The translations under genes were made by a program, and so were the position numbers. 64,000 nt of DNA. It comes from Selaginella tamariscina (taxonomy: Eukaryota > Streptophyta > Lycopodiopsida > Selaginellales > Selaginellaceae). Of the stretch, positions 4,436 to 56,066 are shown piece by piece. Where the stretch lies: NCBI GenBank assembly GCA_003024785.1, contig PUQB01000032.1, forward strand, positions 1 to 64,000, given 5' to 3'. The notes beneath the pieces are model-generated. The model was given only the letters and a program-made list of their open reading frames with translations, did no database searches and was not told where the DNA came from. The first letter of the stretch is position 1. Each line of letters starts with the position of its first letter.

Positions 4436-6510
4436 TACGACCCGTATAACGAATCAAAGAATATTCCTAGAAAGGTATAAGTTAAATATTTTAAAGAGCT
4501 ATACCTAAATCTAAGAGAATAAGGGCACCCTAAGATTGGAAGCCTTTTTGGGAGAGCAATGTGTAGAGACTAGAGACAGCTCGGGGAGTCGGTGGTTTTG
4601 TGAGGGTCTCTAGTTTGTATGTAGTGTGCCTAACAATTGGTATCGGAGGAAGGTTCGAGATGAGTGCCTGGTGGGAAGGGATAATACCACCTGTGTGGAG
4701 ACGTTGGACACTAAAAAACAAATTGTCCAAGGAGAAGCAAGCCCAAGGGCAAAAGTTTCAATGTAGCAAGAACAAGTAGATGCCTAAGAAGCTTTAGGAG
4801 ATGGAGCGTGGAGAGGAGCACAAAGGAGACTTCTCTAAACCACAAGGTAAATTTTATTTGTTCTTGCTCAATAGGTAAACTACATGGCACGGGAGGAGCC
4901 ACACACACGTGCTATTGTGGTGGAGGGACAACTTGGTGAGCATCCAGTGGAGTCCTTGTGGATAGCGGAGTAGCAATAACTTTGTGTCAACAAAGTTAGT
5001 GGAGGAGTGCAGCTTGTCCATGAAGATTGTGCCTCAATACAAGATTGAGGGCTCAGCTATCACACAAAGCTACGTGCTTGTGTGGAGGAGTACAGTTGTA
5101 AGTTGGCAAAACCCAGCTGGTGGAGATGCGCGAAAATGTGCCTCAATACGAGATTGAAGGCTTAGCTATCACACAGAGCTATTGCTTGTGTGGAGGAGTT
5201 ACAGCTGTAGGTTGGCAAAACCCCAGCTGGTGGAGATGCGTAAAGACTGTGCCTCAATACGAGATTGCTATCACACAGAGCTACAATGCTTGTGTGGAGG
5301 AGTTACAGTTGTAAGTTGGCAAAACCCCAGCTGGTGGAGATGCGCGAAAACTGTGCCTCAATACGAGATTGAGGCTTAGCTATCACAAGAGCTATAGTGC
5401 TTGTGTGGAGGAGTTACAGCTGTAGGTTGGCAAAACCCAGCTGGTGGAGATGCGAAAGACTGTGCCTCAATACGAGATTGCTATCACACAGAGCTACAAT
5501 GCTTGTGTGGAGGAGTTACAGCTATAGGTTGGCAAAACCTAGCTGGTGGAGCTGCACGAAGACTGTGCCTCAATACGAGATTGAGGGCTCAGATGTCACA
5601 GAGCTAAATTGCTTGTGTGGAGGAGTTATAGCTAGAGGTTGGCAAAACCCAACTGGTGGAGACTTTCTTTCTTGCGGAGCTGGAGTGTGTGGATCCTAAG
5701 ATTTAGTGGAGCACCAAGCGCATAAAGCTTGAGTACGGTGAAGTGAAAGACACTTGGTTTGGAACAAAGCTTGAGTCTCCAAACAAGTTCTTCTATTGTC
5801 ACACACGAGCGAAGCTGTTGTGCGAGGAGTTGTTGACATATTCCCTCATGAGCTACCTCATGGCTTACCACCTGCAAGAGGTGCGGAGCATGAGATTGTG
5901 TTGGAACAAGGTACAAAACCATTTACCGTAAGTCGTTTCGACTGAGCCATGCTAAGGAGCAAGAGGTTAAGAGACAAGTGATGGAGCTATTGGAATATGG
6001 CTTCATACAACTGAGCAAGTCTCCATTTGGTGCACCAATATTGCTTGTCAGGAAGAAAAATGGCACCATGAGGATGTGCATAGACTACAGAGCTCTCAAC
6101 AACAAACAGTGAAGGACAGGATGCCTATGCCATGTGTGGATACTATCATGGATCATCTCGGTGGAGCCAGAGTGTTCACCAAGATAGTTGGGCATTTCGA
6201 GTTCACTATTATGCCATTCGGCTTAACAAATGCCCCAGTCACATTCACTCGGTTGACAACTGAGGTGTTTGGTGACTACTTGCACGACTTTGTGGAGTTT
6301 TCTCAACGATTCTTATTTACAGTAAGAATAAAAGAGCATGTGCAGCATTTATGAAGAGTTCTTCAGTTATTGAGGGAGAACAAGCTTATGTAAAGAAGAG
6401 CAAATGTGCATTTGCTCAGTGCAAAGTGGAGTATTTGGGTCACATTGTGATGCCAAGTGGAGTGAAGACTGATCCACAGAAGGTGGCAGTGGTGGAGCAA
6501 TGCTCATAAT
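4436..6510 (+). mobile_element. Decayed Ty3/gypsy retrotransposon
   Basis: A short 5' LTR-like block starts with TGTTACGACCC at 4436 and ends near 4634. A primer-binding-site-like TTGGTATCGGAGG follows, matching the 3' end of initiator-Met tRNA as in many plant gypsy elements. Downstream are a lysine-rich gag remnant, an aspartic protease with LVDSG at about 4955-4970, a tandem-repeat zone (separate entry), and reverse transcriptase pieces. The RT pieces include [20 protein letters not shown] near 6030-6085 and the MPFGLTNAP motif near 6210-6240. Many stops and frameshifts are present and the RNase H and integrase regions are missing, so the element is dead and internally truncated. Confidence 0.8.
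5020..5665 (+). repeat. Tandem repeat, about 103-111 bp unit, in the gypsy protease region
   Basis: The block GCCTCAATAC recurs at 5031, 5140, 5251, 5355, 5464 and 5567, so there are six copies with spacing 103-111 bp. Each unit also carries 'gcttgtgtggaggagttacag' and 'ggcaaaacccagctggtgga' type blocks. The first unit is continuous with the retropepsin-like frame (VPQYKIEGSAITQSY), so the array arose by duplication of a protease-region segment. Unit lengths not divisible by three destroy the frame in later copies. Confidence 0.85.
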
Positions 6511-18399: not shown

Positions 18400-18720
18400 T
18401 CAATGCAAGTTCTAATTTGTTTTATTAAGGCACACCCTTACCCCCTTATCTTTCAATGCACGTGGATTTAAGGGTTCTCCAACTTTTATTATTAGTGAAT
18501 GTGGTTTCTAGAGTGTTAGCTGATTCCTTTCATTAGATAAATTGCTTATAAGCATGAGAAATATTGCCCCAAGTACATCTACAAGACTAGTGACTAAGGC
18601 CTTGTTCTTGTTCAACCTAGATCAAGTTTGGATTCTACATTTAGTGCTCATATGCAAGTTGTAACTAAAATGGGCATGGCTATAGTCCCATTTCCTAATA
18701 ATTAGCAATTTTAGCTATTT
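18400..18720 (+). repeat. Fragment of the 33.5-38.8 kb LTR element
   Basis: About 18460-18660 matches 38360-38543, the internal sequence just before the 3' LTR of the element at 33.5-38.8 kb. Shared blocks are 'ttagtgaatgtggtt' and 'attctacatttag'. It is non-coding. Confidence 0.6.
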
Positions 18721-19158
18721 AATTAGCATTTTCTAATATTAAAGGAATATTCTTTAGAATATATGTTTGAAAAGAGAATATTCTTTAGAATATTCTATTT
18801 TGTATTCTACCCTTTAATAAATTATAGCATTCATTGAACAAAAATTAATAACATTATAAAAGTAGAAGGTATTAAATTATATAATATATTGCCTAATATA
18901 ACAATTAAGGAAGAGCATAAGAGGTACATTATATAAATATTGATGTTGTTATTAAAATATTAATATTTAAATATAACATTATTAATTAAAAATTTGTAGT
19001 AGTAATAATATATATATAAAATCCTATAATAATATAGTCAATCTTCCATATCATTTTTTAAATTTATATAGTTAAGTATACAATTTGGTACTATTATTAA
19101 AGAGTTTATAATAATTATGAATATTAAATATATGATATTTTATAATTTTGTAATTGCT
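18721..19158. other. AT-rich spacer
   Basis: AT-rich DNA at the 3' side of the transposase-like gene. No gene or clear terminal repeat is seen. Confidence 0.5.
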
Positions 19159-22100
19159 TTAAGCTTCAGAAAACATACATTCCCTTGCAGTTTTGTTAAT
19201 CGTGACTTTATCAACGCTTCTTGACATCCACCCATATCGAATGGATTTAACATTTATAAAACATGCTGGGTCTTTTTGATTGGGAGACCATGTTTTCTCT
19301 AGGCATCCATTATATCTTTCGCTCTCCTTCTCGTGTCGCCTTTTTTGTGGTTTGAACCATGCAACCTTAACAATACTATTTTTGTGATTACTTCAGGTGT
19401 GTCGATAATTTGACCCATCCAAATAGGCTGATTATATGACGCATCTGGAGTAATGAGAACCATCATTAGTTTTTGAAGATCCTGCAGCAATCAAAGTATG
19501 CTTTAGGTTTTTGGTTCCTTTGTCCAACAAAGTGTGGGGTTTGCACTTCCACATCACTACTGGCTTCTATGTCGTCTGTGCTCAGTGATGTCATTTCAAT
19601 CTCCTCTCGCCACCTTGTTTTAGGCCAGAAAGGGTGTTGCAATTCTGTACTTGTGACAGTAGGCCCTTCCAACTCTCGAACAACAGTCTCCCAATAGACC
19701 ACATGCTTATATAGTTCTGAGTAACCAGTTGCCTTATCAGAATTCTTTGGCATCGATTTTTGAACCCATGCCACATATTTTTTGATGCCATCAATAATAA
19801 CCTCTTGTTCCTTGAGCTGGGCACTCAATGGAATAGGGTCTGGTTGTCCTTCTGGGAGAAGTGGCTTTCCATCCTCTCCACTTTTGAAGAGCATTAAGCC
19901 CTCTTTCGGTAACCACTCCTGCTCTGATGGCCGTAACTTGTACTGCATAATAGGTATACCATCTCGTATGGAGAAAAAGAATTGTAGCGGCACAAGGTGA
20001 CCAACTAAAGAATCACTCCCTTCTTTTATATACTCCTTGAGAAATTTTTTGAAGTCTGGCACCTCAGTCACAAGCAAAGCACAACTTTTTTTGGAGATGC
20101 AATTTTCAAAAAGATTCATCATATGGTAAGGTAAGTGCACTTGTCCTTTTTGTAGAGTTGGAGACCTTGCTGAAGAACGCATCAATATCTTCATGAGTGT
20201 GACCAACCATAAGGAAACTGAGCGTGATTGTTTCAAACACACCTTTGGCAACAAGCATTGACAAGTATGCTAGCACATATCTAGAAAATAAAAGTAAGTA
20301 TGAGCTTGAGAAACCCTTAAGTAAAATGATTTACCTATTTTTGTTCTCGCCTGCACAATTATCCATCTGTAAAAGCAAATGACGAGGAAGCTTATTTGAT
20401 GTTGAGGACACATGTACACTATTTGAGCTAGATCCCTCCACTGAACCTGAACTCTCAACAGGGCCATTTTTTTTGTGCAGGTTGCTGACAATGCCTCTCA
20501 TATTCCCAAGTAGCCTCAAGTGCAGACGTGTTCATGAGAGCATTATGTAAAGGTTGAAGGTGTTGTTTCTTCACTTTGAGATCACTGATAGGACTTGTCT
20601 GTGAGTGGGCTTCAAGGTTTCTGAAACACATGGCTAACGACCCAATAGTGAAATTGGAGTCGCTAGACCAATGTGGAAGTGAAAAGTGTCCATATGACTC
20701 ACAACCGTGTCCATGTGTTAGCACACCTGTCAATGAAATCGGAAGTTTCATGACATTTCCAAGGCACTTTGGTGTTGCAAAGAGCTTTGGAATGCTGGTC
20801 TTTGAATGATCCATCTTGTCATGGATCAAGCACAGGTACTCTGATGGGCGTGACACAGAAAGCATGCGGTGTGCATAGTACTGAGACCGGCAAGTTTGTT
20901 GTGCAATCATGTGGGCCTCCATCTTCTTTTGAATGGTAGTGATCTCCACCAAGGTTTTTGCACAAGCCTCTGCAGCCTTCAATGATGTACAAGTGTCACA
21001 CTTGGAAAAGCTAGAGTGTTTTGCAATCTCCACATCCTTAAAATGAGTATTCCATATGTTGTTGAAGGTACCAGTGCAGATTGCTTGGAGCCCCATCAAA
21101 CTGAGGCACTTGTTCACATGTTCACACAGCTTCAATTGAGTGTAGATTGAAGGCAAAACCTTGAGATTTTCCCTGACCCCTGCATTTGTGGTTCGGCATT
21201 TGTGAGGCATCCTGTCTGCATTTGCTTCCACAAAAGCCTTGAGTATCTCTATGGCTGCCATGATGTGAGAGCGGGTTTTGACCAAGCGAGTGTTCCCATG
21301 AACTGAGGTTCGCGCTCCATCTAGCCACTCATCCCTCCGACGGTAGAACGTGGTCTTTGGGATCCCGTATATACTGTACCAAGCTTTGAAGCAGATGGCC
21401 ACCTTATTAAATACCATGGATGTACTCTGATAACCTGTGTCCGAGGCCATTCCATCAATACACCCAGTTAGTGCAGCATATACAAACTCATGCCTTTGCT
21501 TTTGGGTGAGCATACGAAAGACATGTCTACATTGGGTAATTTCATTCCGGTCTGCCATCTGACAACACTTCTTCTTGCAACAGTCAATCGTGGAAATGCT
21601 CGTAACACTTTCGGAAGATGTAGGATCCATCTTTACCCTCTTGCTGAAACTTGCAGGGGAAGATCTACAACCCATGAATCGCCTTTTTCTTACAATAGGA
21701 CCAATGCAAGGAACCTCTTCAAATATGAGTTGTTCTTCCGGGTTGTTATTATTGAAATCCAACCCAGAATATGTTGAACCATCTTGCCGTCTTAATTCAG
21801 ATGTTCGCCACCTCACGAGGGATCCAGGATACAATGTGCCATTAGGTGAAACCTCTGTCACAACTACACCCACGAAGTCGGACCCTAGTTTCTCTTCTGA
21901 CACTGCTTCCATTGGATTTATAGCTGTGATGATGCCTCTTCCGACTTCAATCTCACGAAGAAAGAGAATCACCTCATCCATCACAGCAGGCAAGCCATCA
22001 TCTGGTAAACTCGTGCTACTATTTGTTTGTGACTCTGCATATTCTGTGTCAGCCTTGACTTCATCCAAATTCCACAATACAGGAGAACCCTCCTCAAATT

Positions 22101-22281
22101 CCATTCCCAGAACCTCAACATGCTTGTAAATGGTGTTCACCCATACGTACACACAAGATCCTTGGGCAATATTGTGACATGATGCATTATTATCTCGAAC
22201 TTCCACAGTTCCAGTGCCAACTATCTCGTTGTTCCGAAGAAGACATACTTTATCTCCAGTATTAAACATATTGTCCTGCAC
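19159..22281 (-). CDS. DUF7869-type transposase-like protein
   Basis: The first large coding exon runs from a splice acceptor at 22281 for about 608 codons. A GTAAAT donor near 20333 and an acceptor near 20279 join the rest, which ends with TAA at 19159-19161. In order, there is an N-terminal domain around TGDKVCLLRNNEIVGTG; an HTH-like GIPKTTFYRRRDEW (about residues 304-318); FSKCDTCTSLK; and three conserved acidic blocks. These are IHDKMDHSKT (about 480), LQMDNCAGENKNR and FLMVGHTHEDIDAFF. From family knowledge this is the DUF7869 architecture, expanded in mosses, lycophytes and some protists and animals. The acidic blocks look like an RNase H-fold DDE/DDD catalytic core, so a transposase or integrase role is inferred. 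Frame breaks occur in an A8 run near 20467, near 20155, and near 19355. The missing 5' exon would lie toward the palindrome array. Confidence 0.65.
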
Positions 22282-22422
22282 ATAAATAATTGTATTATTT
22301 ATGATATCTGTTTATGCAATATTTCTAAGAAATCTGAATTACGGTTACTTAATAATATGCATATGCAATAATACATAATTATGTTTAGAGATAATATCTC
22401 ATGTTTGATTAATACAACTGAT

Positions 22423-22975
22423 GGGCGGGATTAATCCCGCCCACGAATCCCTCCGACGAGGAACGGTCGGCGGGATTAATCCCGCCGCCGACTCAACCCC
22501 TTCGGAGAGAGTCGGCGGGATTAATCCCGCCGGACTCCCCCGAGGAAGAGCGGCGGGATTAATCCCGCCGCCTCTTCCTCGGGGAGTCGGCGGGATTAAT
22601 CCCGCCCACAATTCTTACGACGGGGAATGGGTGGCGAGATTAAACCGCACATAACTCTTCCAAAACTATGATTTCAAAGAGATCTCGGGATAAATCCTGT
22701 CCCCAAATCCTTAAAACAGGGAAGTGGTGGCGAGATTAATCCCGCCACCCCTTCCCTGCCTCCTAAAATGTTGCGGGATTAATCCCGCCGACAACTCTTT
22801 CTAATAAATTCTGGTAACTCTTCATCAGTTGAGAAGGTTATCGACGGGATTAATCCCGCCACTCTTTTTCAGTGGCGGAGAAGCATTGCCCGAGAGATGG
22901 TGGCGGGATTAATCCCGCCATCTCTTCGAAGAGGCAAAAAGAAATGGCCGGATTAATCCCGCCGCCCCGGTTAAC
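22423..22975. repeat. Palindrome array 1 (GGCGGGATTAATCCCGCC)
   Basis: About 12 copies of the perfectly self-complementary 18-mer GGCGGGATTAATCCCGCC lie in 550 bp, with starts near 22424, 22469, 22514, 22551, 22589, 22632, 22684, 22729, 22773, 22844, 22902 and 22948. Some copies are degenerate. Spacing is 37-45 bp in the first five copies. Flanking bases are often self-complementary too; the copy centred on 22560/22561 extends to 30-base arms. GC content is far above the surroundings. The array lies just upstream of the transposase-like gene. Confidence 0.95.
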
Positions 22976-23560
22976 CTAGAATATTAAGTTAAAAGGATAT
23001 TTAAACGGGATAAATCCCTAACGGAATATATTATAATCCTAATGCATTCCTAAACAGAGAATGTAAGAGAGTGAATCTTTATAAGTATTTTTAAATTTGT
23101 TTATAATACTTACTTGTAAACAGCACTGAAGGCGCCGTGCTTTCCTATAAAGAATAGCACCAATTTAATCTCGCTCTGAGATGATCACTATGAAGAAAAA
23201 AGAAGATCTAAAGAGTGAAAAATACAGAAATGAAGAAACCCTTGCTGGAGAAAGAACCAGATCTGAATTTGAGTGGGAAATTAAATGCATTTTCAAATTT
23301 ACATGTCAGACCGACAATATATATGTCAGAAATTCAAATTTTTTAAAAAGAACAGAAAATAAAAAGATGAGTTGACACAAATATCCGACACTCTGACATA
23401 TATACTCTCCAAGTTCCAATGAGTATTTTAAAATTGCATTTAATGTTATTCAAGTGATTCAAGCTGTTTAATATTACGAAATTTTAGACTATATTCTACA
23501 TTCTTAGTATTCAAGTATATTTATATTATATATATATAAATATATACTTATACAATAAAT
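22976..23560. other. Spacer after palindrome array 1
   Basis: A degenerate palindrome remnant is followed by AT-rich DNA. A 64-codon open frame at 23181-23375 is Lys/Glu-rich with no recognisable domain and is probably chance. Confidence 0.45.
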
Positions 23561-23569
23561 AAATTGATA

Positions 23570-24300
23570 TATTATTATGTATCATTTAAAATATATTCAT
23601 AGTCTGTTTATTATTATTATTTTCTTAATTACTCGAGTATTTAGTTTTCATTTCCTAGTATCAATGGGATATTCTTTATTATTTTATTAATATTTGAAGA
23701 ATATTCTAATATTAAACCTGATTATCATAATTAAATTAGTCTTGTTCTTAATTATTGCAGTAATTATTCTACATTTGTATATATTAATGGGATTTTCTCA
23801 ATTAATTTGTTATTATTTCAAGAATATTCCTGTGTTAAACCTTATTATCAATATTAAATTAATATATATTATTAAAACTATATATGACTATATATTAGAT
23901 AAAATGATGTATTATATGTATAATTTAAAATATGTTCATAGTGTGTATATTAATATCATTTCCTTAATTACTTGAGTAATTAATCTTCTTTATATTAATG
24001 GGATATTCTTTATTATTTTCTTATTATTCCAAGAATATTCCAATATTAAACATGATTATGATAATTAATTTAGTTAATTATTTGAGTACTTAATTTACAT
24101 TTGTATATATTAATGGGATTTTCTCAATTAATTTCTTATTATTTCAAGAATATTTCAATGTTAAACCTTTTTATCAATATTAAATTAATATATATTATTA
24201 AAACTATATATGGCTATATATTAGATAAAATCATATATTATTATGTATAATTTAAAATATGTTCATAGTGTGTTTATTAATATTATTTTCTTAATTATTC
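23570..24300. repeat. AT-rich tandem repeat, about 332 bp unit
   Basis: The block 'atgggatattctttattatt' occurs at about 23667 and 23998. Its neighbours ('aaaatatgttcatagtgtg', 'ttaaacctgattat') repeat with the same offset, giving slightly more than two copies. It is not coding; the open frame at 23694-23975 is a by-product. Confidence 0.75.
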
Positions 24301-24519
24301 GATGTTTTTTTGCACACATATATAAACACAATCATAAATTTACACACGCATTACAAGAACTTACAAAAACACATATGCACACACATGCACAACCCTAAAC
24401 CAAACTGAAGAAATATGTTGCTTCTTTATTGAAAACATCATGTTAACGCATGTATGATATATGTACTCAATCTGTGTGTATGTAACACATTGAATTTACA
24501 TGTGTAATATTTATATTAA

Positions 24520-25090
24520 GCTTGTTGGGAGCAAACCCTAAACCCTGTGTATACATGTGTGTACAAAAATAATTTTTCAACACTCTCTCTTCACACCATG
24601 CATGATCCATCCTAAACCCTAAACCCTAAACCCTAATATGTAACACAATGAATTTACTCATGTAATATGTATGTATGTCTGTGTGTATACACGTGTGTAT
24701 GTATATATGTGTACTTTCTCTCTTCTCTCATACATACACACCATGCATGATCCATGTTAATATGTACTGTTTCTCTTCTCTCAAACATACACACCATGCA
24801 TGATATATAATATGTACTCGGTCTCTCTAATATTATGTACTAATATGTATGTATGTCTGTGTGTATAATACACACCATGCATGATCCATAATATGTACTG
24901 TCTCTCTTCTCTCATATACTATGTATGTATATCTGTGTATAATATGTGTAAGTATATATGTGTACTAATATATGCAATGTGTACAAAAATAATTTTTCAA
25001 CACTCTCTCTTCTCTCATACATACACACCATGCATGATCCATCCTAAATCCAAAACCCTAAACCCTAAACCCTAAACCCATGTAATATGT
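24520..25090. repeat. Interstitial telomere-like repeats in a duplicated about 410-bp block
   Basis: Short runs of the plant telomere motif (CCCTAAA) occur at about 24528-24542, 24611-24636 and 25046-25080. The surrounding block 'aataatttttcaacactctc' plus 'caccatgcatgatccatc' occurs at about 24568 and 24980. This is a direct duplication that carried the telomere-like tract with it. A 'ttagggtttaag' motif also recurs near 25320-25410. Confidence 0.8.
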
Positions 25091-25449
25091 ATGTATGTCT
25101 GTGTGTATACACGTGTGTATGTATATATTATGTGTATTAATATATGCAATGTGTATGTATGTATTGATACACATGAAACTTTAACACTCTCATGGACACA
25201 CACATGTTAAATCCCTGCGATTTATATTTTTGGGGTGTATGTGATACACCCACGCACACGCACGCACTAATAATATAATGAAAGAATATTCGTTTAGGGC
25301 GAATCTATATTTTATTCTTTTTAGGGTTTAAGTATATTCTCAGAAGGAATATTTATTAGGGTTAATATATATATTTAATTCCTTTAGGGTTTAGGTATAT
25401 TCTTAGGGTTTCAAGAGGCGGCGGCTGTGAAATCGGCGGCGGCGGCTGT

Positions 25450-25765
25450 GCACACAGGTGAGATGTGTGTGTGTTGTGTGTGTGTATATGTATGTATGTA
25501 TATATGTATAGGAGTGTGCGTAAATTTATTTATTGATCTATTTCTCGCACACACACGCACACTCCTGTGTATATATGTGTGTGTGGGTGTGTGTTTGTTT
25601 ATCTGTATGATTTTATTTGTTTCGCTCACACACACATACACACGATATACATATACACATATATATATATATACCTATATACATATATACATACATATAT
25701 TATGTGTACCAGTATCTATAAATTTTTTTTTATTGATCTATCTCTCCCACACACACGCACACTGC

Positions 25766-25797
<32 letters not shown>

Positions 25798-26146
25798 CAA
25801 TGCATATTAACAAATAGTATACAACACTAGTTTATATATATGCTTATATATTCATATGGGTTATATATTATATACACACATATATATGTGTGTGTGTTTA
25901 TCTGTATAATTTTATTTATTTATTAGTTTTATCTCTCGCACACACACGCACACTCCTGTGTATATATGTGTGTGTGTGTGTTTGTTTATCTGTATGATTT
26001 TATTTGTTTCGCTCACACACGCATACACACAATATACATATACACATATATATATACCTATATACATATATACATACATATATTATGTGTACCAGTATCT
26101 ATATAATTTTTTTATTGATCTATCTCTCCCACACACACGCACACTG

Positions 26147-26182
<36 letters not shown>

Positions 26183-26539
26183 CAATGCATATTAACAAAT
26201 AGTATACAACACTAGTTTATATATATGTTTATATATTCACAGACTCTCTCTTTCTCTATGGGTTATATATCTATATACACACATATATGTGTGTGTTTAT
26301 CTGTATAATTTTATTTATTTATTAGTTTTATCTTTGCACACACACGCACACTCCTGTGTATATATATGTGTGTGTGTGTGTTTGTTTATCTGTATGATTT
26401 TATTTGTTTCGCTCACACGCATACACACGATATACATATACACACATATATATACCTATGTACACACATATATTATGTGTACCAGTACTGTATAATTTTA
26501 TTTATTTATTTATCTCTTGCACACACACGTACACTCCTT

Positions 26540-26603
<64 letters not shown>

Positions 26604-26690
26604 ATATACACACACATATATATGTGTGTGTTTTTATTTGTATAATTTTTTTATTTATTAATTTTATCTCTCGCACACACGCTAAGCCCC
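25450..26690. repeat. Microsatellite-rich tandem repeat, about 395 bp unit
   Basis: The block 'cacacacgcacactcctgtg' recurs at about 25547, 25940 and 26338, with a partial copy near 26520. Between these, TG, CA, TA and ATAC microsatellites and the phrase 'tattatgtgtaccagtat' repeat in the same order. The open frames in this stretch are only microsatellite translations. Confidence 0.85.
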
Positions 26691-26693
26691 TCG

Positions 26694-28335
26694 AGCAGTG
26701 GGATTAATCCCGCCACTATAAGTTTATGGCCTGGCGGCGGGATTAATCCTGCCGCTATATGGTTGGGGCCATGGCGGCGGGATTAATCCCGCCGCTCTAG
26801 GACAAACCGAAGAGCAGCGGGATTAATTCCGCCGCCCATGGCCTGCGTGAGGGGCCTCGGCGGCGGGATTAATCCCGCCGCCCACCCATGCCCTGCGCGG
26901 AATGCGGCGGGATTTATCTCGCCGGCAATGGCCTGTGTGAAGGCCCTAATGGGCGGGATTAATCCCGGGGATTCCGCGCAGGGCATTTACAGGGGATGGG
27001 CGGCGGGATTAATCCTGCCGCTCATGAGGCTAACCAAAGAGCCTGCATGAAAGATCCTGCACAGAAGGCTAATCGAAGAGCCTGCATGATATGTCCAGGG
27101 AATTCACGCAGGACATGAACGGCGGGATTAATCCCGCCCCATGCTCATGCCTTCGCAGAGGGCGGCGGGATTAATCCCGCCGCTCAGGCACTTCCGCAGG
27201 ATATAAGCGGCGGGATTAATCCCGCCCCACCCATCCCTGTTCAAAATGCCGCAGCCAATATATATGTGTGAGCGCATGATTTACGAGAGGGCGGCGGGAT
27301 TAATCTCTCCGAACCTTCATTGCCCGGTGGCGGGATTAATCCCGCCACCCTTCTTTTTTTCCTCCATTGGTATGTTGAATCAATCCCGACTAACTCTGTC
27401 TGAGACGGAGAAGGTTTACAAAATACCAATGGAGGGAACTGAGAAGGGTGGTGGGATTAATTTCACCATCCCTTACATGGGCGGGATTAATCCGCGCCTT
27501 TTCGGAGCCCCTGAAGGGGTGTGAGAAATAAATCCTGCCCAATTCTCTCTGAGAACGAGAAAGGTGGCGTCCAGCGGGATTAATCCCGCCGCCTATGGCC
27601 AAAGTGAAGGGCCTGGGCGGCGGGATTAATCCGCCGCGTACGCATCCCTGCGCGAATCGGGCGGGATTTATCCCGCCGCCATTGGCCTGCCTGAAGGGCC
27701 TAGGCGGCGGGATTAATCCCGCAAGATTTCGCACAGGGCATTGGCGTTCGGCGGGATTAATCCCGCCGACTAAGGCCCGAGTGAAGGGCCTGGGAGGCGG
27801 GATTAATCCCGCCGCGTACAATGCCCTGCGCGAATCGGGCGGGATTTATCCCGCCGCCATTGGCCTGCCTGAAGTGCCTAGGCGGCGGGATTAATCCCGC
27901 CCGATTCCGCGCAGGGAATTGGCGTCCGCGGGATTAATCCCGCGCGAGTAGGGATTAATCCCGCCGAGTCTTCAATGCCTGTTGGAGGAATGAATCCCGC
28001 CACCCTTCCTTTTTTCTCCATTGGTGAGTCGGACCAATCCCAAACGTTTCTGTCTGAGACGTAGAAGGTTTACAACATACCAATGGAGAGAATTGGGAAG
28101 GGTGGGGAAATTCATTTAACCATCCCTTACATGGTGGGCGAGATTAATCCCGCCTCCTTTCTGGAGTCACTGAAGGGGTGTGAGAAATAAATCCTGCCCA
28201 GTTCTCTCTGAGACCGAGAAGGGTGGCAAGATTAATTCCGCACTCCCGTTCAAGGCCTCCAGAAAGGTGGCGAGATTAATCCCGCCCACTCTTTCAGGAG
28301 GCATTGAAGGGGTGGCGAGATTAATCCCGCCGCAC
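26694..28335. repeat. Palindrome array 2 (GGCGGGATTAATCCCGCC)
   Basis: About 30 copies or variants of the 18-bp palindrome lie in 1.6 kb. In the best-ordered part the starts are near 27572, 27616, 27659, 27703, 27749, 27796, 27838, 27881 and 27927, a spacing of 42-47 bp. Spacers alternate between a GGCCTGNNTGAAGGGCCT-like hairpin and TGCCCTGCGCGAAT or its reverse complement. A four-palindrome unit of about 180 bp is repeated at about 27597 and 27777. A hairpin of about 75 bp with arms 'cctccattggta' / 'taccaatggagg' occurs at about 27360 and 28014, indicating a larger repeat of about 655 bp. Confidence 0.95.
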
Positions 28336-28445
28336 CTTCCATGTGAATATATATGTGTATTAGTATATATAAGTTGCATATCTCATTTTATTTACTTTTA
28401 TCATCTTATCATAATATTTCGAGTAAAAGCTAGGAATCTATGTAA

Positions 28446-28532
28446 AACTGTCCAGAGCTCACATTTGTGGTGGTTCTAAAACGAAATGTTATCTTTCTTT
28501 TGCACTAACACAAATGTGAGCTTCGGACAGTT
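28446..28532. repeat. Long-armed hairpin (MITE-like or small-RNA-like)
   Basis: The arms at 28446-28470 and 28508-28532 are complementary over about 24 bases with one or two mismatches, around a loop of about 37 bases. The hairpin sits between palindrome array 2 and the ParB/methyltransferase-like gene. It could be a miniature inverted-repeat element, or a foldback transcript in the 5' region of that gene. Confidence 0.7.
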
Positions 28533-28634
28533 AATTACGTCTACTTCTCTCTGTGTATTATTTTTGTATATTCGGGTTTATACAAGTGTGTGTGCGTTTT
28601 TATATGATTTGTATTATAGTGTATTATTTTGCAG

Positions 28635-31600
28635 AAGGACGATTTGATCAAACAAGGAGATCGAGTCATTAGTATGGAGTCGTCGTCAAATTCTGGGTAA
28701 GAATTAAAATAAAATCTGTTATACTCGGATACTTGAACTAATCATTTTTGTATTCAGATGTGGAATTGAGGTGACATTAAAGACAAGAGCAGGAGAAGAG
28801 ATGGGCAGGGGGATTCTGGAATCAACTTGGCCATATTTTAAGATAAATGGGAAGCGCATTGGAGCAACCATGGTTGCTGTCAAATTAACCTCTGTCACAT
28901 CTCATGGACAAGCAAAACAATGGAAAGTAGATTCGCTAGTCAAGCACCCGAAAGCAGGCTGCGAACCCAGATTGGACGATGCTCGACAGATATGCCTTGT
29001 TCCATCCAATGTCACGTTCTCGGATCCAGAGGTCGTCAGTTACAACATTAATTTCGGGTGGTTTTGTCGACTTGTGGATAATGACGTTCACGTGTTCACT
29101 AATGATGTTGACCTTGGAGTTCTTCTTCAACTCAACGAAAGCCCATCTATGGAGGGGATCCATCTGGATGTCTACTTCGAAGATCTTCAGACTCATCGAG
29201 TAGGTGTATTGTCAGGAGATATTGCTTCACAATACAGAAAATCAGCAAGTGGAGCAATCTTCCCTCTTCACATTGAAGAAGAACACAGCGACATCATAAG
29301 GAGATTGAGAGGGTGGCTCGGTCTCAGGTTCTCTACAGATCACGTTCAATTTGCTTAGGAAGCTTCGGGAGCTGGAAGAGTGTGCCGAGAACACTAGAAC
29401 AGCTGCAGTCGGGGATCACACATGTTGATTCGGATCGCAAAAGAAAATCATCAATCGTTTTGTCAGCTGCACCTGTGGCATCTCATGCTGCAATAAGTCA
29501 CAAGGAAATGATGTTGGATGATAAGATTTATCCTTGTAGGGTTAAATATTGCAGCGTCAACCCAAACTTCAATTACAGGCCACTCAACCAGGAACGTGTA
29601 GCTGAGCTCATGGAGAAGATGAAGGACGACAATTCTTATACCGTTCCACATAATGCTGTTTTGTGTCCATACTATGAAAGAAGGAAGGGCGCTGACAAAG
29701 TCTGGATCACAACACCAGAACAACTCATGAAGATTCAGACGGAGAATAAAATCTATCAAGTACTACATCATTAGTGGCCAGCACACAATAACGGCAGCCC
29801 AACGACTTCTCGATGAACACAACAAAGGAACGATGGCAACAAAACTTTCCGAGCATACCCGTGAGAAGCTGACAAAAAGATCGGCGTTTTTAGCTAAGCC
29901 GAATCTCACAATCGAGCAGTACCATAAGTTATCGGCGGAATGGGACGCTGCCGACACCAACCACTACAACAGCAAAATATGGGAGAAGTTTAAACACACG
30001 CGAGCCGTGTGGGAATCTCTTCAGCGACCACAAAGAGCTACCGCAGGGAATACACAATCTGCGGAATACCGGGTAAGCAAATTGTTTGGGCGGGATTTAT
30101 CTCGCCGGTATATTAATCTGTCTTTTTCCTCAGAGAGTTGAAGAAATTGCAGCAGTTGATTTTGCCCAGGTGGGCGGGAAGGAAACATCCTTTCTGATGA
30201 TGTTGATTTCTTGCCCCGAAGATAGGATCTTTGCCAAATGGTTGGGGATTATGGAATCCTTTTCAAAAGGAACACTGAAGAAGAAGCAGACAAGTGAAGG
30301 GGAGCCCTCAGAAAAGTCTGCAAAGAAACCCAGTAAGACGCCGAAGGCTAAGTCTGTTCAATCTACAAAGGATGTAGACAACGATTTCAAGCTCACATGG
30401 TTGAAGCCTTTAAATGGAACAACGATGGAGGAGATGGAAGTCTTGGCTGATTTGGTGATCGATGGCAAACTACAAATTAATAACAGCAGCCCAACCTCTC
30501 CTTTTCATCTCAAGGCAATGGAGTTGAAGACGGTCAGGCATTTCAAGGAGTGGTTGGGAATACACTGCCACAAACTGGGTTGGACCTCGACTTCAACATA
30601 TGAAGAGGTCAGCAAATATTTGCATGTGACGAACGATGATATGCTTGTCGAATGGGTGAACCAATCGGAAGATCTAGGCAAGAATCTATTGCACGCCAAC
30701 GCCAAAAAGGAGAACATTGGGATGACGCCTTCTCTTATGGCAGTCCTTCAGCAGCGGAGAACCGAATTGAACCTTATAAAGGAGGATGCTACGAATCACG
30801 ACAAGCCCTACAGATGTTTGTTGTTAGATTCGGAGACTTTATGGGGTAACATCACTGCTTGTAGGAAACCGTTTCAATTGTTCGTGATGGATCGGCGGGT
30901 GTCAAAAAATCTTTCGACAGATAGGGCACTAGAGGATCTGGTGGAGAAACTTAGCCGTGCAAGCATATACATAGAAGGTATTTATTATTGAATTCATGCT
31001 TGCGCTCTTCACTGATACCTACTTTTTCAGGTATTTATTTCTTGATTCTTGCTCATGTCACCGATACTTTTGCCTTCGCCTTCGCCAAGAAGAATAGACA
31101 TCGTTGGACAGGATTTTATATGAACGATGCTAATCCCAAGTGCATTGATACGTTGTTCACTTGGTTGTTAGGAATGCGCCAAACAATTTCAAGCTTCCAA
31201 ATGACTGGCCAGGCATCTGTTTGCACTCCAACGGCCCTGAACCTCCATCCGATACACCGATAGGTATGAGTGACGTATTCGGCAATGTACGTTATCCAAA
31301 CATTACAAGTCAAGCGGCACGGAGCATCGTCAACTTGATCAGGGGTCCTCACAGTGATGCGTGGGTTTTTGACTACTGCACTAGGGGGTCCGTCTTGAAG
31401 GAGTGTTACCTTCGGCATACATGTGTGTTTGCCGTTGAAAAGGATAAGACCATGGTTGAGGACCTGAACAAGTGGATAGATGGGTCTCAACTGAGTACCC
31501 CAACGAATCCATAAAGGCGTATTTGAGAAAGTTCCCTCCAGATAAGTGCGATAGCTCTGAAGGTGAATCTGGTTCAATCTCGGAGTCTGAGAACGAACTT

Positions 31601-31774
31601 CAATCAGATATTAGACCGGAAGTTATCTCGAGGAGTACAGAACATTCGCACACTCCAGGACCCATGGAAACATCAATAGAAGATGCAGAAGATCTTGAAC
31701 CATCTCACAAGCGGCTTAGACCTTCTTCGCCTCACTCAGAAGGTAATAGCGAAGAAGAATTGATAATGAATTGA
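28635..31774 (+). CDS. ParB-like / DNA-methyltransferase-like fusion protein
   Basis: Coding begins after a TTTTGCAG acceptor at 28634 (exon 28635-28696) and resumes at 28758. The N-terminus (QGDRVISM, then VTLKTRAGEEMGRGILE) resembles the start of the transposase-like protein at 22.3 kb. A ParB-like segment follows, with NPNFNYRPLNQERVAELM at about 29560-29615 and ISGQHTITAAQRLL at about 29772-29813. After introns at 30073-30133 and 30978-31030 comes VFDYCTRGSVLKECY / VFAVEKD at about 31365-31440. This looks like methyltransferase motif I followed by the acidic SAM-binding strand. A canonical DPPY catalytic motif is not seen; LFVMDRR near 30880-30900 may be its altered remnant. The C-terminal tail is acidic and Ser-rich. 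In bacteria and phages, ParB-like and N4/N6 DNA methylase domains are often fused. Frame changes occur near 29340, 29420, 29755, 31170 and 31490, so the present copy is frameshifted. The domain assignment rests on motif memory only. Confidence 0.5.
30089..30108. repeat. Single palindrome copy inside an intron
   Basis: The 20-mer GGCGGGATTTATCTCGCCGG is identical to an array-2 variant at 26906-26925, including its departures from the consensus. It occupies one third of the 61-bp intron at 30073-30133. Confidence 0.9.
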
Positions 31775-32029
31775 TAGAGTGATGAATAGTTGTAAATGAG
31801 TGTAACATAAGGCATTTTTGTATATTTTTTTATATTTGTACAGAAAATAAATTCTCAAGGATTAATGAAGCTTTTAGTTCAAACATGGGTCACACATTAA
31901 CAAGGTAAATAATATACCTTGATAATTTTAAGGTCAGCTAATTATCATTTTGCAGATGTAATGAAATAATTGAGAACATGGATTTTCAGCATTGCATGAG
32001 GTAAGAGAGGGGTTTGGCGACAATTTCTT
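31775..32029. other. Short spacer between the ParB/MTase-like and HAD-like genes
   Basis: About 250 bp of AT-rich DNA between genes on the same strand; it probably holds the 3' UTR of the first and the 5' UTR of the second. The segment from about 31960 is also present in the duplicate at 45040. Confidence 0.5.
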
Positions 32030-33186
32030 GTGCCACATGTCAGAATGACAGAGTTCATGCAGGAAATGGATAATAATGCAGCTCAAAACATCGTTACCAT
32101 GGGGGCCACTTCATCATCATTTTTATTGGCTTCAGTTCCGAAATCAATTTCTTCAGCGCATGCAATATCTGAATCTTGTAAGGATGATGTACAATTAAAT
32201 GATGAAGGGATAGGCAACGAGATAGTGGCAACGGATAAATGTGAAAGGGAGCAAACAAGTGATTTGCAAAGTATTCAAGAGGCAACGCTATCTCATGTTA
32301 CTCATGGCCATATTGTGTTGTTGGATGTCAATGGTGTTCTGCTTCATCGACAAAGGCCCGAGGATAGAAAAAAGAAATCAAACAAGGAGATTTCATTCCT
32401 TGTCATGGTAAATTTCGATATGATATTATTTTTCGTCCAGGGTTGGATCGTCTCTTTCAAAAGCTTAAGGAGATGGGTGCGCTTGTGGGGATTTGGTCAT
32501 GCATGCAGATTCATAACTTAACACCGCTGTTGAATTTACTTAAGAAACATTGTAGTGTTGCAGAAGAGGTGATTCGTAAAGATTGGATTTTTGACCAGCG
32601 AATATGTTATAAACCTCTCGAATTTCACAATATAAGAAAGGAAAGCAAGCCATACTTCTTCAAGAATGAAAGAATAATTGGGACTCATGGGGAGATCAGT
32701 CGCTTAAGGATAATGAAGAACGCACATTTAGTAGTAGACGACTCTCCTCAGAAGGCTATGCTCAACCAAAACATTGCTTGTATTCATCCAATCACTTTCG
32801 ATCCATATTCTGATACCGATATCATGGATGAGCTAGTGAACTACTTGGATACGTGCCTCAGAAAGAAGAATCTCGAAAATTTTTGTGAGCAGTATCCACC
32901 GTATCATACATTTCCTGAAGCTTTTCTTTCTCGTGATATTGAATTTTATAAAATGAAGGATAGCAACCGGGCGCTTTATAATATTATTCTTAAGGAACGT
33001 CAGTTTTTAGATGAGCCTTTATGCAGACCTTCTCTTATCACATCTTATGTATTAACAAGGATGGCAACTCCCAATTGCATTCGTGAGAGTGTTAAGTGGT
33101 GGCAACAACATCAAGATATTGACCAAAATGATTTGATTAATCCGGAGAGTGATGATTTAGACAAAATAAAAGATTTCTTTGTATGA
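32030..33186 (+). CDS. FCP1/NIF-type HAD phosphatase-like protein
   Basis: A low-complexity N-terminal region leads to HIVLLDVNGVLLHR, the HAD motif I position (canonical DxDGTL). Here it reads D-V-N-G-V-L, so the second catalytic Asp is replaced by Asn. After a frame change near 32400, FRYDIIFRPGLDRLFQKL and GIWSCMQIHNL (motif II region) follow, then HLVVDDSPQKAMLNQ (motif III/IV) and YSDTDIMDELVNYL. These are the FCP1-homology (NIF) elements found in CTD-phosphatase-like proteins. The frame change lies between SFL and CHGKF and looks like a missing base; no plausible intron covers it. The C-terminus to 33186 is open. The Asn at the acid/base position suggests reduced or altered activity, if the base call is right. 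It lies 250 bp downstream of the ParB/MTase-like gene and was duplicated to 45.1 kb. Confidence 0.7.
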
Positions 33187-33494
33187 TAGAAGAAAGTATT
33201 TATAAAAAATTAACATGTTGATAAGAAAATGATTTCATTTGTAATTATGTTTGATAGTATTTCTTCATTATTGTAAACTATTTTTAGAATAATATGAATA
33301 TTCTAAGATATTTTAGGAATATTCCTTACTAAGTAAGGTTATTGAAGGATTAATTAATTAATTAATTAATATTTAAGGCTTAATTACATATTAATTAAAT
33401 GATTAATTAATAATTAAAACTTAAGTATTAATTAGTAATTTATTTTATATTCCCATTTTCACGTATCATGCCCACTTTAGTTACAACGTGCATT

Positions 33495-36400
33495 CATGAT
33501 ACAAAGTAAGATGGAAAATTACAACATATGTCTCTCTCTCTTTGACTTATTATATGACCTTCATTTGTTTTAGGAGTAGATGTGGCTAAACATTCTAACT
33601 CATCTAGTAAGTAATCAAGGATATCTTTCTTTCTCTCCCACGCACATGCACATGCACACGCACAAGTTGTCTCTCTAACTACCTCATCCATGCTAAGCTA
33701 GGAGCAACACTTGTAACTTGCTAGTCATGCATCCTAACTCACTAGGTAAGCATTGTTATGTGCACTTAATTAACTGAATTTCTAAAAATCAAGTGGGTTA
33801 TCTTGTGAATTTTCTAATAAAAGTTTCTAAATTTGGCATGTGCACATGGCATCATATAAAAACTTTAATAAGTAAGACGTACTACTTAATTAAACGACAC
33901 ATGATTTACATGTGACTCTCACTAAGTAAAAATTATAACACATCACCTCACATCCACAAACTCAAGAGTTGCTACTATCACTTTTCTTTAATGGTCATTC
34001 TTAATAGGGGCATCTAACCAGTTCATAGTAATTGGTACCATCACGATTGTATCATCTTGGGTACCTAATTGTTCTCGTATCAATAAATTAATGAAACCAA
34101 AGGCGATTCTAGTGGCCAATAGTTATGCACATGTATATGAGAGGGTCTCATCACACAAGGATTAAACTTATATTAGTTATACACTAGTGAAAATGAAATT
34201 CAAGTCACTTCCAAAATCAAATGTCAAAGTTTTTACCTAATGCCATGTGTGTAACTTATCAAATGTCATAGTTTTTACTATGACTCGACCCTTTACTTTG
34301 GAGATTGACTGTTGTTACCTACTGTACTATGTTGATAGACCCTAGATGTAGTAGGAAATAGGCCTGCTTAGTGCACTTAGGTATTTGGTGATGATCCGGC
34401 CGAGTGTCATTAAGTATTTGTAGGAAACTCTAAGCGAAGCTAGAACTTACCTTCTAAAAATCCATCCCCAATTTTGACGTTCGAATTAGGTTGATTGGTT
34501 AATGTAAATGAGTTCGGCGTGTTTAGTAGGGTTAGGAACACCCCTAGGGTCGCGCTAACCCACACCCTAAAAAAACCCCACCCCCTTAGGTAGGGTTTTA
34601 GGGTTAGAGTTAAGCTAAGTTAAACACTCTCTCATTAACTTAATAAGGGCTAGCTAATTTTGTGCTAGCCCACTTACACATTCAGGAACAGAGGGGGGGG
34701 GGGGGCTCCGTCACATAAATAAGGTAGAGTATGTAGGAGTGAGGGTTCTTGGGTTCATGATTGAGCTCATTACTCTTCTCCCGGTGCAAGCTCTAGCTTG
34801 TGTCGTTAAGGCACAACCCTTTGTTGTGCCGCCCTAACTTCCAAATGATAGACCTTCGGGGTAGTTCACCTTTAACGTTGGCAAATCCATGCCTAAAAGG
34901 TCTTGTCAAAATGCACGTTCCAAGAGGCAAAGGTTGAAGCTTGTCTCCAGCTTCCTCCTCCACGTCAAGCTAGGTGTAGCACTCATGGCCAAGCAAGGCA
35001 CATTCGTGTCCTTGTTCAACCGTGGGCGTGGGATCTTGTTTAACGGGTTCACATTACCCAGTTCCTGAGGATTCACTAAGGGATTCTAGAGTTGGCATGT
35101 AGGAGCCATGTTTGTGGCACTTGGTGCAACTTTTGAATCTAAGGGTTATGGCATGATAGCCCACATCGGGGAAGGCAGTGTCGTATAGAGATGTGACACT
35201 GGGCTAAACATCACACAATACAATGCCCAAGGCATGCCCTTTGAGGTTGTGTCATGGGCTTGCCGCCAGGGGGTTGGATACTCTGACAACAGGCATGCTT
35301 GTGCTCGCGCTAGGGTACTAAGCCTTGGGCATTTGCTCAAGGGAGGTTAGGTCTCGTAACTAGGTGTGCTTAGGCACACTTGACTAGGAAAGTGTCCTCC
35401 TTGGAATTCAAGGGTTGAACAACCTAAGCTTGTTAGCACGAGCCTTTTTGTGAAGCACTCGCAAGGTCATGTACTTAAGGTTATCCAAACCTAGCCTTAG
35501 GGAGTTTACTTAGTAGAACACTTGTGTCCGCCTACGGTGCACACTCGTGTCTTCATTAAGTACTAGCCCTAAGTCTAGGGTATGACTTGGCCACCCAAAC
35601 CCTTAGGGGTTAGTCGTGATTTAGAGTACCCCTTGTCGCTCTAAAGGGGTTGTACTCCCGAATGAGGGTGATTTCTTCAAGGGGTAAGTGACGATGCCTT
35701 AGCTCTGTCACGGGGGTATGTGTGAGACACATCTCCTTTGTGGGGTTAGGGCATGAGCCTATTTAAGTTTAATGGGACAAGATCTTAAAGTCTACTCGGG
35801 TTATCCTCTAGGGTTTAGGGGATGGTCAATCTAGGGGTAGGGTAGGACTCTAAGTCTTTTGCCTAATTGGGCCTCTGAGTCAAACTCTTAGGGTTATCTT
35901 GGAAGACTTAGCGTTACTCACATAGGGTGATGATGCCGAATGACCACTTGGCAGCCATGTGTTGCCACGTTTTGGCTCTTTGGGTTAAAACTCTGACAAT
36001 TAGTATCGAAGCTATTCTCTACAGTCAGTAGGACGGCCTAAAGTGTGGTGTGTTTTAGGGTTTAGTTAGTTCTAAATTCTTGAAATACTTTATCATTTTT
36101 GGCTTACATCTGAATTATACGTGGAGAGCTGGTCCTGAGATTTATAACTATTCAGAGTACACGTTATGAACTCAAATGTCAAAAGTAACACTTGGAAGTC
36201 AACTTCCAAGTTGTATGCCAGGTTTTTTACCTTGTGGTCGTCTTAGTTACTTTACCTTATACTCTACAAGACATGGCATGTTAGTTTGTTCTGGCTTACA
36301 AATTAAAGTCTTGTGAGGTGGGTCTTGTGATATCCTAAGTCTACACATTATTGAAAATTTTTCTTTTTCTTTAAAAGTGTTTGAATTTAGGATAACACGT

Positions 36401-45104: not shown

Positions 45105-46296
45105 TATATTTCTTGCATAAACTCTATCATTCTAGTAATGCAACTCAAAACATCATTAGTGTGGGAACACTTGTCTTGGCAAATTTCAAAACGAGTTTAT
45201 TGTTAAGGTTTTTAAACCACCATCTTAAGCTCCTTCAATTTCTGCATCATTATTTTTATTGCCTTTAATTCCTGAATCACTTTTTCAATGCATGCAATAT
45301 ATGAATCTTATAAGGACAATGTACAAGTAAATGTTAAAGAAATCGGTAATAATATAGCATCAAAAAATAAATGTGAAAGGGACCAAACAAGTGAGTTGCA
45401 AACCATTTAAAAGGTAACGTTGCTTCTTGTTACCCATGGCCATATTATATTGTTGGTGTCAATGTCATTCTGCTTCATAAACGAAGGCTTGAGAACAGGA
45501 AAAAAACAATTCATTTATTATCATGATAAATTTTGACATAATATTATTTTTTGTTCAGGGTTTGATCGTCTAGATGAGTGCACTTGTGAGGATTTGGTTA
45601 TGCATGTAATTTCACACATGACATTGCTATTGAATTGCTCGACAAGCATTCAATTTGTAATGTTGCAGAAAAGATGACTCGTAAAGATTGGATTTTTGAC
45701 TAACGATGTGTTATAAACCTCTCAAGTACTATAGTGTAAGAAAGAAAAGTAAACCATATTTCTTTAAGAATGAAAGAATAATTAAGCTTCATTGAGAGAT
45801 TAATCAGTTAAGGATAATGAAGAACACACATATCTTAGTGGTAAATGACCCTTCTAAAAAGGCTATGCTTAATCAAAACATTACTTGTATCTATCCAATC
45901 AATTTCAACACATATTCTGATATTAATATTATGAATGAGCTAATGAACTACTTGGACACCTGCCTCAGAAAGAAGAATTTTAAAAACTTTTACGAGTAAT
46001 ATCCACCATATAAAGCATATCCTAATGCTTTTCTTTCTCATGATTTTGAATTTTTATAAATTAAATAAGAGCAACCGAACACTTTACAATGTTATTATTA
46101 AGGAATTTCATTTTTTAGATAAGTCTTTATCTACTCCAGATGTTATCACAAATTACATATTAACAAAGATGATAACTCCTAACTGTATTTGTGAGAGTGT
46201 TATGTGGTGATAATAACATAAAGATATTGACTAAAATAATTAATTAATCCAGAGAGTAATGATTTAAACAAAATAAGAAGATTTCTTTGTATGGTT
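45105..46296 (+). pseudogene. Decayed copy of the HAD phosphatase-like gene
   Basis: It parallels 32030-33186 along its length. It has a broken motif I region near 45430-45470, the VVNDPSKKAMLNQN-like counterpart of VVDDSPQKAMLNQ at about 45840-45870, and the NELMNYLDTCLRKKN segment at about 45930-45980. It contains many stops and indels and a strong AT shift. The flanks are duplicated as well. Confidence 0.9.
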
Positions 46297-47110
46297 AAGG
46301 AGAAAATAATTATAAATTATTGACAGATTGATAAAAAATTGATTTTATTTTTTATTATGTTTGATAATATTTTTCAATTATTATAAAATATTTTTACACT
46401 GAAGAATAATATGAATATTCTAAGATATTTTAATAATATTCTTTACTTTATAATAATTAAAAAATATAATAATTATTTTATCATATAAATATTATGTCTA
46501 TGTATTTCAGGTTGCAACGTTTATTAAATGTATATTGACATGATGATTATATTTTTATTCATTTCTTTGTCGTTTATTAGTGTAAAATGAATAAAGATAT
46601 ATTTTTTAATAATGATAAAATTGAAGATTAATTAAGAATTAATTAGTTAATTAATTAATAATTAAGACTCAAATATATATTTATTAAATAATTAATTAAT
46701 AATTAAAACTTAAGTATTAATTAATAATTTATTTTATATTTTCATTTTCATGTATCGTGCCAATTTAGTTACAATGTGCATTTAAGTATATGGTATGGCT
46801 TGACTTAAATTTTAGATTTAGTCACTTTAAAGAGGTTGATCGAGATGCTAGGTGATGCCTTGGATTTGTCACATGGATATATATGGAACACATATTTCTT
46901 TGGGTAGGGTTTGAGCATAAGCATGTTTAAATCTCATGTTAGAGATCCTTGACTAATGATTTGGGGTATTGACTTTAAAAACTGTAAATCTTTTATCTAC
47001 TTAGGTATTTAATTCAAACTCTAAGGTTATATTAAAAGATTTAGTGTTACTTATACAATTCTCAATCGACAACCACACGTTGTCACTTTTCATTCAGGTC
47101 AAAACTTTAA
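46297..47110 (+). repeat. Duplicated flank of the HAD gene plus LTR end
   Basis: From 46297 to about 46790 the sequence follows 33187-33490, including the 'aattaataattaaaacttaa' block. It then jumps to the equivalent of 35575-35998, the last part of the long LTR. The copied unit therefore contained both gene and LTR, with about 2.1 kb of LTR now missing. Confidence 0.75.
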
Positions 47111-52424: not shown

Positions 52425-52429
52425 TTACC

Positions 52430-52640
52430 AAAGAACTAGCAAGCACTCAATTAGTGATGTACCCAACGTTTCAGTCAAGGAATTAATAAGTATTCTAGTT
52501 AGTGTTACAACTGAGGAACTAATAAGCAGTCTAGCTAGTGCTACAACTGAGGAACTAATAAGCATTCTAGCTAGTGCTATAGCCAGTGATGAACCAGCAA
52601 GCACTCTAACAAATGTCACAATCCATTATTCCAAGAGTCT
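52430..52640. repeat. 36-bp minisatellite
   Basis: A unit close to 'tagctagtgctacaactgag' plus 'gaactaataagcagtc' (36 bp) is repeated about five to six times with substitutions. Because 36 is a multiple of three, it leaves an open frame on the minus strand (ISSSVVALARL-like repeats), which I regard as a by-product. Confidence 0.8.
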
Positions 52641-52695
52641 TCAACTAAGCACTCCACCTCCTGCATTTTCTTTGAGCAACACACTAAAGAAAATG

Positions 52696-56027: not shown

Positions 56028-56066
<39 letters not shown>

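Follow-up and report, generated by a model that had tools for sequence, protein, structure and literature searches.

Two dense arrays of an 18-bp palindrome in a 64,000-nucleotide stretch of the Selaginella tamariscina genome (contig PUQB01000032.1, positions 1 to 64,000; hereafter, the window) are part of one DNA transposon with defined ends. Each array stands directly upstream of a gene, in one case a DUF7869 transposase-like gene and in the other an orphan accessory gene; the two genes are divergent and point away from a common central region. By analogy with known plant elements, we favour on balance the reading that these are promoter-proximal binding-site arrays through which a large and abundant DNA transposon may control its own promoters, in a VANC-like manner. 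A preliminary description of this DNA had drawn attention to the arrays and to the genes beside them, and had missed that both arrays and both genes lie within one transposon.

The arrays were assigned to a DNA transposon because the limits of DNA similarity, the terminal inverted repeats (TIRs) and the target-site duplications (TSDs) coincide around them. The corresponding features are as follows.

18652 to 33493, unstranded: DNA transposon of 14,842 bp carrying both arrays, delimited by similarity limits, TIRs and TSD
18648 to 18651, forward strand: left TSD, TCAT, from end-pair comparison
33494 to 33497, forward strand: right TSD, TCAT, from end-pair comparison
18652 to 18678, forward strand: left TIR, ATGCAAGTTGTAACTAAAATGGGCATG, from inverted-repeat and genome pattern searches
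33467 to 33493, reverse strand: right TIR, ATGCACGTTGTAACTAAAGTGGGCATG, reading inward and with two differences from the left, from the same searches
22424 to 22963, unstranded: left palindrome array, 10 sites at up to three mismatches, separated by 113 bp from the 5' limit of the transposase open reading frame (ORF)
26697 to 28331, unstranded: right palindrome array, 28 sites at up to three mismatches (30 at up to four), about 340 bp upstream of the orphan-gene ATG
22964 to 26696, unstranded: AT-rich central spacer separating the two arrays, contains simple repeats and CCCTAAA tracts and is matched in other copies

DNA similarity to other copies ended between 18642 and 18666 (18649-18653 in 7/9) at the left boundary and at 33493 or 33497 at the right one, and a 27-bp inverted repeat, ATGCAMGTTGTAACTAAARTGGGCATG, sits exactly at these limits. 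Searching the genome (300.7 Mb in 1,391 contigs) for the TIR pattern at up to two mismatches identified 3,901 ends (1,995 and 1,906 on the two strands), compared to none for a control pattern. For comparison between copies we used 16 stretches (160 kb in all) that represent six loci on two contigs and were selected for carrying the motif. Among 21 end pairs drawn from the window, these blocks and the genome ends among the matches listed, 12 possessed an exact 4-bp TSD, against 0.15 expected from mismatched pairs; for one of these 12 (C1:3-17 kb), locating the end meant tolerating a 1-base insertion. The remaining pairs comprised one with a single mismatch in four, one matching at 3 bp only, and seven without a match, which may reflect wrong pairing or rearrangement. 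Also identified was a nested copy (C2:121721-135520, TSD ATTA) inserted between the transposase gene and the array of another copy. Across window and blocks, 196 of 225 palindrome sites with at most one mismatch lie between paired TIRs, and the other 29 fall in element copies interrupted by nesting or by the limits of the stretch.

The genes of the element in the window are the following.

19466 to 22311, reverse strand: DUF7869 transposase-like gene (ORFs 22311-20455 and 20269-19466), frame-shifted here; identified from Pfam PF25273, database relatives and alignment
28674 to 31774, forward strand: orphan accessory gene, four exons drawn by eye, frame-shifted here; identified from frame-specific ratios of nonsynonymous to synonymous differences (pN/pS), with no relatives found in the protein search described below
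30073 to 30133, forward strand: 61-bp GT-AG intron of the orphan gene with one palindrome (30089-30106), part of a 46-bp segment repeated genome-wide
32000 to 33186, forward strand: NIF/FCP1-like phosphatase gene, start approximate; Pfam PF03031, E 9e-9 in ORF 32368-33186

The comparison blocks contain 16 further arrays, and the window genes are present in all six blocks. Of the resulting 18 arrays, 16 adjoin the 5' end of a gene, nine that of the transposase gene and seven that of the orphan gene; in the other two cases one array is parted from its gene by the nested copy and one is truncated. The suggestion that the palindromes would be found together with DUF7869-type genes and with the gene then called ParB/methyltransferase (MTase)-like was thus borne out as regards location. 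Furthermore, a single palindrome occurs in the intron of the orphan gene in seven of eight copies, the eighth being masked before the intron. Since the arrays lie inside one element, we discarded their interpretation as satellite DNA unrelated to genes.

The genome-wide search for the 18-mer that had been proposed recovered 46,888 places at up to one mismatch, with no matches to a control pattern. Among the matches listed these places form clusters, and the order seen in the window, a short array, an interval of about 4 kb and a longer array, recurs several times. The palindrome-bearing 46-bp intron segment was found in 1,487 copies at up to three mismatches. Taking 1,487 intron segments and 1,950 end pairs as the two bounds, we estimate about 1,500-1,950 copies of the element, corresponding to approximately 22-29 Mb or 7-10% of the genome, an arithmetic which assumes mostly full-length copies of 14.8 kb. 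It is unusual for DNA transposons of nearly 15 kb to occupy almost a tenth of a genome. A link to occurrences of the 18-mer in bacterial and viral sequences (49 and 1 stretches, respectively) was rejected, all but one of these being single sites. Within one of the bacterial sources, the Prevotellaceae metagenome-assembled genome Cus372_bin5, the 18-mer occurs once each, often near the contig end, in several short contigs (L013, L022, L026, L027, L033, L037, L039 and others), as though it belonged to an unrelated dispersed repeat.

That the arrays are real was confirmed by matching the 18-mer GGCGGGATTAATCCCGCC at up to three mismatches, which yielded 39 sites in the window (15 of them perfect) and a mean of 0.00 in 100 dinucleotide shuffles. 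The two blocks hold 38 of these sites; the 39th is the intron palindrome. Of 338 distances below 200 bp between neighbouring sites, counted in the window and in the 160 kb of comparison DNA, 189 measure 44-46 bp. Also upheld was the claim that the core is far better kept than its spacers, identity being 0.83 in the core and 0.29-0.30 in the flanks of 105 distinct contexts, although the core figure is inflated by the choice of sites for their likeness to the core (up to six mismatches). A scan of window and blocks for further exact palindromes (10, 12 or 14 bp) occurring in clusters yielded AGAATATTCT alone, 13 times in one block.

A neutral origin of this pattern would require that slippage or unequal exchange spread the unit, with the core as a mere hot spot where exchange starts. 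Such a process might account for the variation in array size between copies, from 6 to 30 sites at up to four mismatches, and for the recurrence of spacers in both orientations. We nevertheless regard it as improbable, given that the spacers are near random next to a core identity of 0.83, that the arrays occupy the same two places beside gene starts, and that the lone intron palindrome, present in 1,487 copies of its segment, is unexplained by tandem exchange, though the youth of the family may explain part of this. The earlier suggestion of selection on a dyad, as opposed to satellite drift, still stands.

The distribution of conservation within the 18-mer points to a protein-binding site. 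Over 363 sites, the best-kept letters lie near the dyad centre (A7 0.98, T8 0.99, A11 0.98 and T12 0.99, with T9 and A10 at 0.92), compared to 0.84-0.93 at the arm positions. The conservation profile is symmetric with ATTAAT at the centre as its best-kept part, and information amounts to 1.14-1.95 bits per core position and at most 0.43 outside. A hairpin under selection is expected to show a free loop and compensated arms. The preliminary description had pointed to variants that keep base pairing, such as GGTGGGATTAATTTCACC, and had proposed scoring compensatory changes in the arms. These variants exist, yet double complementary changes are not commoner overall than independence predicts (12 pair cells vs 16.65 expected for the 363 sites; 4 vs 4.33 for 106 distinct contexts). 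Individual pairs depart in both directions, 6/13 (5 vs 1.92) and 3/16 (4 vs 1.96) lying above expectation, excesses that fall to a single site each in distinct contexts, and 5/14 (1 vs 4.75) and 4/15 (0 vs 3.07) below it. Because the centre is best kept and the arms are not compensatory overall, these results favour the site of a dimeric protein over a selected hairpin. Selection for a hairpin in the core was rejected on the same grounds, the best-kept letters lying at or beside the would-be loop. Of the candidate roles first listed, transposase or DNA-binding-protein sites are consequently the best supported; selection for hairpins was not supported. The commonest core changes across all sites are G to A (155) and C to T (129 of 588), a pattern which weakly fits methylated cytosines; this reading is weak because C-to-G is as common as C-to-T in distinct contexts (36 each).

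Turning to the coding content, the window piece of the transposase matches PF25273 (DUF7869) with E 3e-5 and 24.1 bits, just below the curated cut-off of 26, and the gene of another element copy matches it with 94 bits (E 1e-26). Five database relatives were recovered (P0001-P0005; 28-37% identity), two of which, P0001 and P0005, possess weak Transposase_23 (TNP1/En/Spm) matches below the curated cut-off. Alignment identified IHDKMD and GHTHEDID as common to the transposase and the full-length relatives P0001 and P0002, and LQMDNC, read by eye from the window DNA, corresponds to LQLDNC in P0001 and LQMDNC in P0002; catalytic roles for these three motifs, of the sort expected in a DDD transposase such as that of the Sola superfamily, are a guess. 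No mention of DUF7869 was found in the literature searched. For the orphan protein, no relatives were detected among 5.8 billion proteins (E 0.001 and E 1) by a short-word method that can miss distant ones. Even element copies that are as much as 99% alike (L059-L074 blocks) carry different frame shifts, which hints at indel errors in the assembly or at rapid decay.

Between copies, four pieces of the orphan gene exhibited pN/pS values of 0.31, 0.07, 0.20-0.21 and 0.20 in frame, compared to 1.17-2.88 in wrong frames, one of which had no synonymous change and was not computable. Non-coding control stretches of 200-500 bp scattered from 0.09 to 3.37 across frames, so that small pieces mean little alone; it is the larger pieces, with 223 and 122 changes, that carry the argument, and from these the orphan gene looks constrained. 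The transposase gave 0.39-0.41 in frame against 0.86 and 0.95 in wrong frames. Constraint on the phosphatase was not demonstrated by the same comparison (0.62 both in frame and in one wrong frame).

Taken together, these findings suggest a mechanism in which a two-fold symmetric, probably dimeric, protein would bind GGGATTAATCCC in many copies side by side at a pitch of about 45 bp. A dimeric-protein array serving both promoters is suggested by the symmetry of the site, by its regular pitch ahead of two divergent genes and by its being kept while the spacers drift. The binding protein would most likely be encoded by the element, because the element contains the arrays that were examined and its orphan gene appears to be under constraint, and the orphan product is the best candidate. 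Binding may then keep both promoters open against host silencing or may raise their transcription, a step which we consider less certain. Array length would change by tandem gain and loss with the 18-bp core kept. More tentatively, and as a possibility we would place short of probable, a transposon outside the MULE (Mutator-like element) and CACTA groups might have evolved self-activation or anti-silencing independently, with the orphan protein reading 18-bp palindromes at about 45-bp pitch upstream of two divergent promoters and so aiding its rise to roughly 1,500-1,950 copies, 7-10% of the genome. With a motif in tens of thousands of copies and few candidate proteins, repeated invention of motif-array self-activation by transposons becomes testable.

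A number of observations weigh against control of the element's promoters by a protein of its own. As the blocks were chosen by motif, the absence of arrays elsewhere was not sampled. Searches of Pfam, NCBIfam, PHROGs and PDB sequences revealed no DNA-binding domain in the orphan protein. The pN/pS values carry no statistical test and include differences common to related copies, and the piece with a value of 0.07 (312 bp, 23 changes) is weak alone given the scatter of the non-coding controls. Structure provides further points on this side. The RNA spanning the first five units (22424-22606) has a folding energy of -144.4 kcal/mol, with a z score of -14 against shuffles; the flanking arms of individual sites match one another somewhat beyond permutations (79/20,000 and 95/20,000 reach the observed value); and some sites centre longer palindromes of approximately 40 bp (22552, 22729). 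Such features would be expected if the palindromes acted as DNA cruciforms or RNA hairpins, for example to yield double-stranded or small RNAs or to block read-through, and the excess of complementary double changes at pairs 6/13 and 3/16 agrees with this. Strong folding, however, must follow from any such repeat of palindromes, and the arm excess is carried by few sites (7/105 score at least 6, vs 4.25 expected). With the core as a whole lacking compensatory excess and conservation peaking at or beside the would-be loop, we consider a structural role quite improbable.

Control of the promoters through the arrays does not in itself specify the binder, which could be a host factor. In that case the palindromes would recruit a host transcription factor, e.g. 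homeodomain or E2F-like, and the element would borrow host activation for its two promoters. The location of arrays directly upstream of both genes suits this explanation equally, and the half sites of the 18-mer presumably resemble sites of known factors. Conversely, no host factor emerged, a single homeodomain or E2F site is shorter than the dyad, and all 225 sites with at most one mismatch fall in the element or its fragments, albeit in motif-selected blocks; host recruitment thus appears unlikely. In a partition-like system, the palindromes would act like parS as loading sites for a ParB-like protein, which would then spread along the element. The basis for this is YYIINGQHTITAAQRL, which by eye we take to be similar to a ParB-N motif. 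The orphan gene had first been labelled ParB/MTase-like, and by eye it looks so to us as well. Neither label found support in Pfam, NCBIfam, PHROGs or PDB sequence searches, which returned no ParB family in Pfam (E <=10) or in PHROGs and NCBIfam (E <=1) and no ParB chain among PDB sequences (E <=10), leaving this explanation scarcely credible.

Several additional features were observed in the window. The central spacer of the transposon possesses telomere-like CCCTAAA tracts at 24611-24636 and 25043-25079. An inverted repeat drawn by eye (CTGTCCAGAGCTCACATTTGTG ... CACAAATGTGAGCTTCGGACAG, approximately 28445-28535) lies between the right array and the start of the orphan gene and could form a leader hairpin. 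At 45242-46782 the phosphatase gene and the right-end region of the element recur in diverged form (77-87% identity), probably left over from an earlier insertion. Beyond the element, several related genes or fragments, 68-84% alike and on both strands, occupy 48398-60309, one of them matching the Pfam F-box model, and a tandem repeat of approximately 110/213 bp (5022-5662) lies near a weak reverse-transcriptase match at 5971-6351.

Although the literature searched, which left most subscription papers and Repbase outside, gave no account of comparable arrays in an element of this type, and the palindrome strings occurred there in unrelated context only, motif arrays are known from other plant transposons. 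In the Arabidopsis MULE VANDAL21, arrays precede VANA21 and also occupy introns of VANB21 and VANC21, according to the available part of PMC5735166, and VANC21, which binds YAGTATTAY arrays located in non-coding regions, causes methylation to be lost (PMC5735166, PMC10398659, as excerpted). As far as these excerpts extend, the present element shares with VANDAL21 its nature as a plant DNA transposon with accessory genes, a dense short motif upstream of the transposase gene (PMC5735166), a motif also within an accessory-gene intron, and arrays that expand and contract (PMC5735166, PMC10398659). Unlike the VANDAL21 9-mer YAGTATTAY, which the same excerpts give in one orientation, the motif described here is an 18-bp palindrome at about 45-bp pitch, and its intron carries a single palindrome in place of an array. 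Furthermore, the 4-bp TSD differs from the 7-12 bp given for Mutator elements in the part of PMC10741241 consulted. Membership of the MULE/VANDAL group was rejected, as none of 21 end pairs matched at 5 bp or more and Pfam listed no MULE domain in the transposase.

Similarly, CACTA (En/Spm) transposons are large plant elements with motif arrays for an element-encoded DNA-binding protein, TNPA (available text of PMC2613891), the corresponding binder being only a candidate here, and the weak Transposase_23 matches of P0001 and P0005 provide a further likeness. In contrast to CACTA elements, described in that text with subterminal arrays, a 3-bp TSD and CACTA ends, the present element has a 4-bp TSD and ends in ATGCA, and its arrays in the window lie 3,772 and 5,162 bp inside the element ends, not beside the TIRs. 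CACTA membership was rejected because of these ends, which are neither CACTA nor CACTG, and because a 3-bp TSD occurred in 1/21 pairs (0.60 expected) vs 12/21 for 4 bp. Membership of Ginger, characterised by TG...CA ends and a Gypsy-integrase-like protein, was likewise rejected: with a 4-bp TSD the ends read A-TGCA...TGCA-T, placing TG/CA one base inside, and Pfam listed no integrase domain.

A correspondence exists also with Sola transposons, which the available part of PMC10741241 describes as having a 4-bp TSD, variable TIRs of 11-1124 bp and lengths up to >15 kb, and as occurring in a moss and, it seems, only infrequently in flowering plants. By these described features, rather than by sequence comparison, the element resembles Sola in its 4-bp TSD, its 27-bp TIRs with two differences and its size; it departs from Sola as described there in its palindrome arrays and accessory genes, which that part of the source does not mention. 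Were the orphan protein confirmed as the binder, it would represent a further, apparently unrelated factor beside TNPA and VANC.

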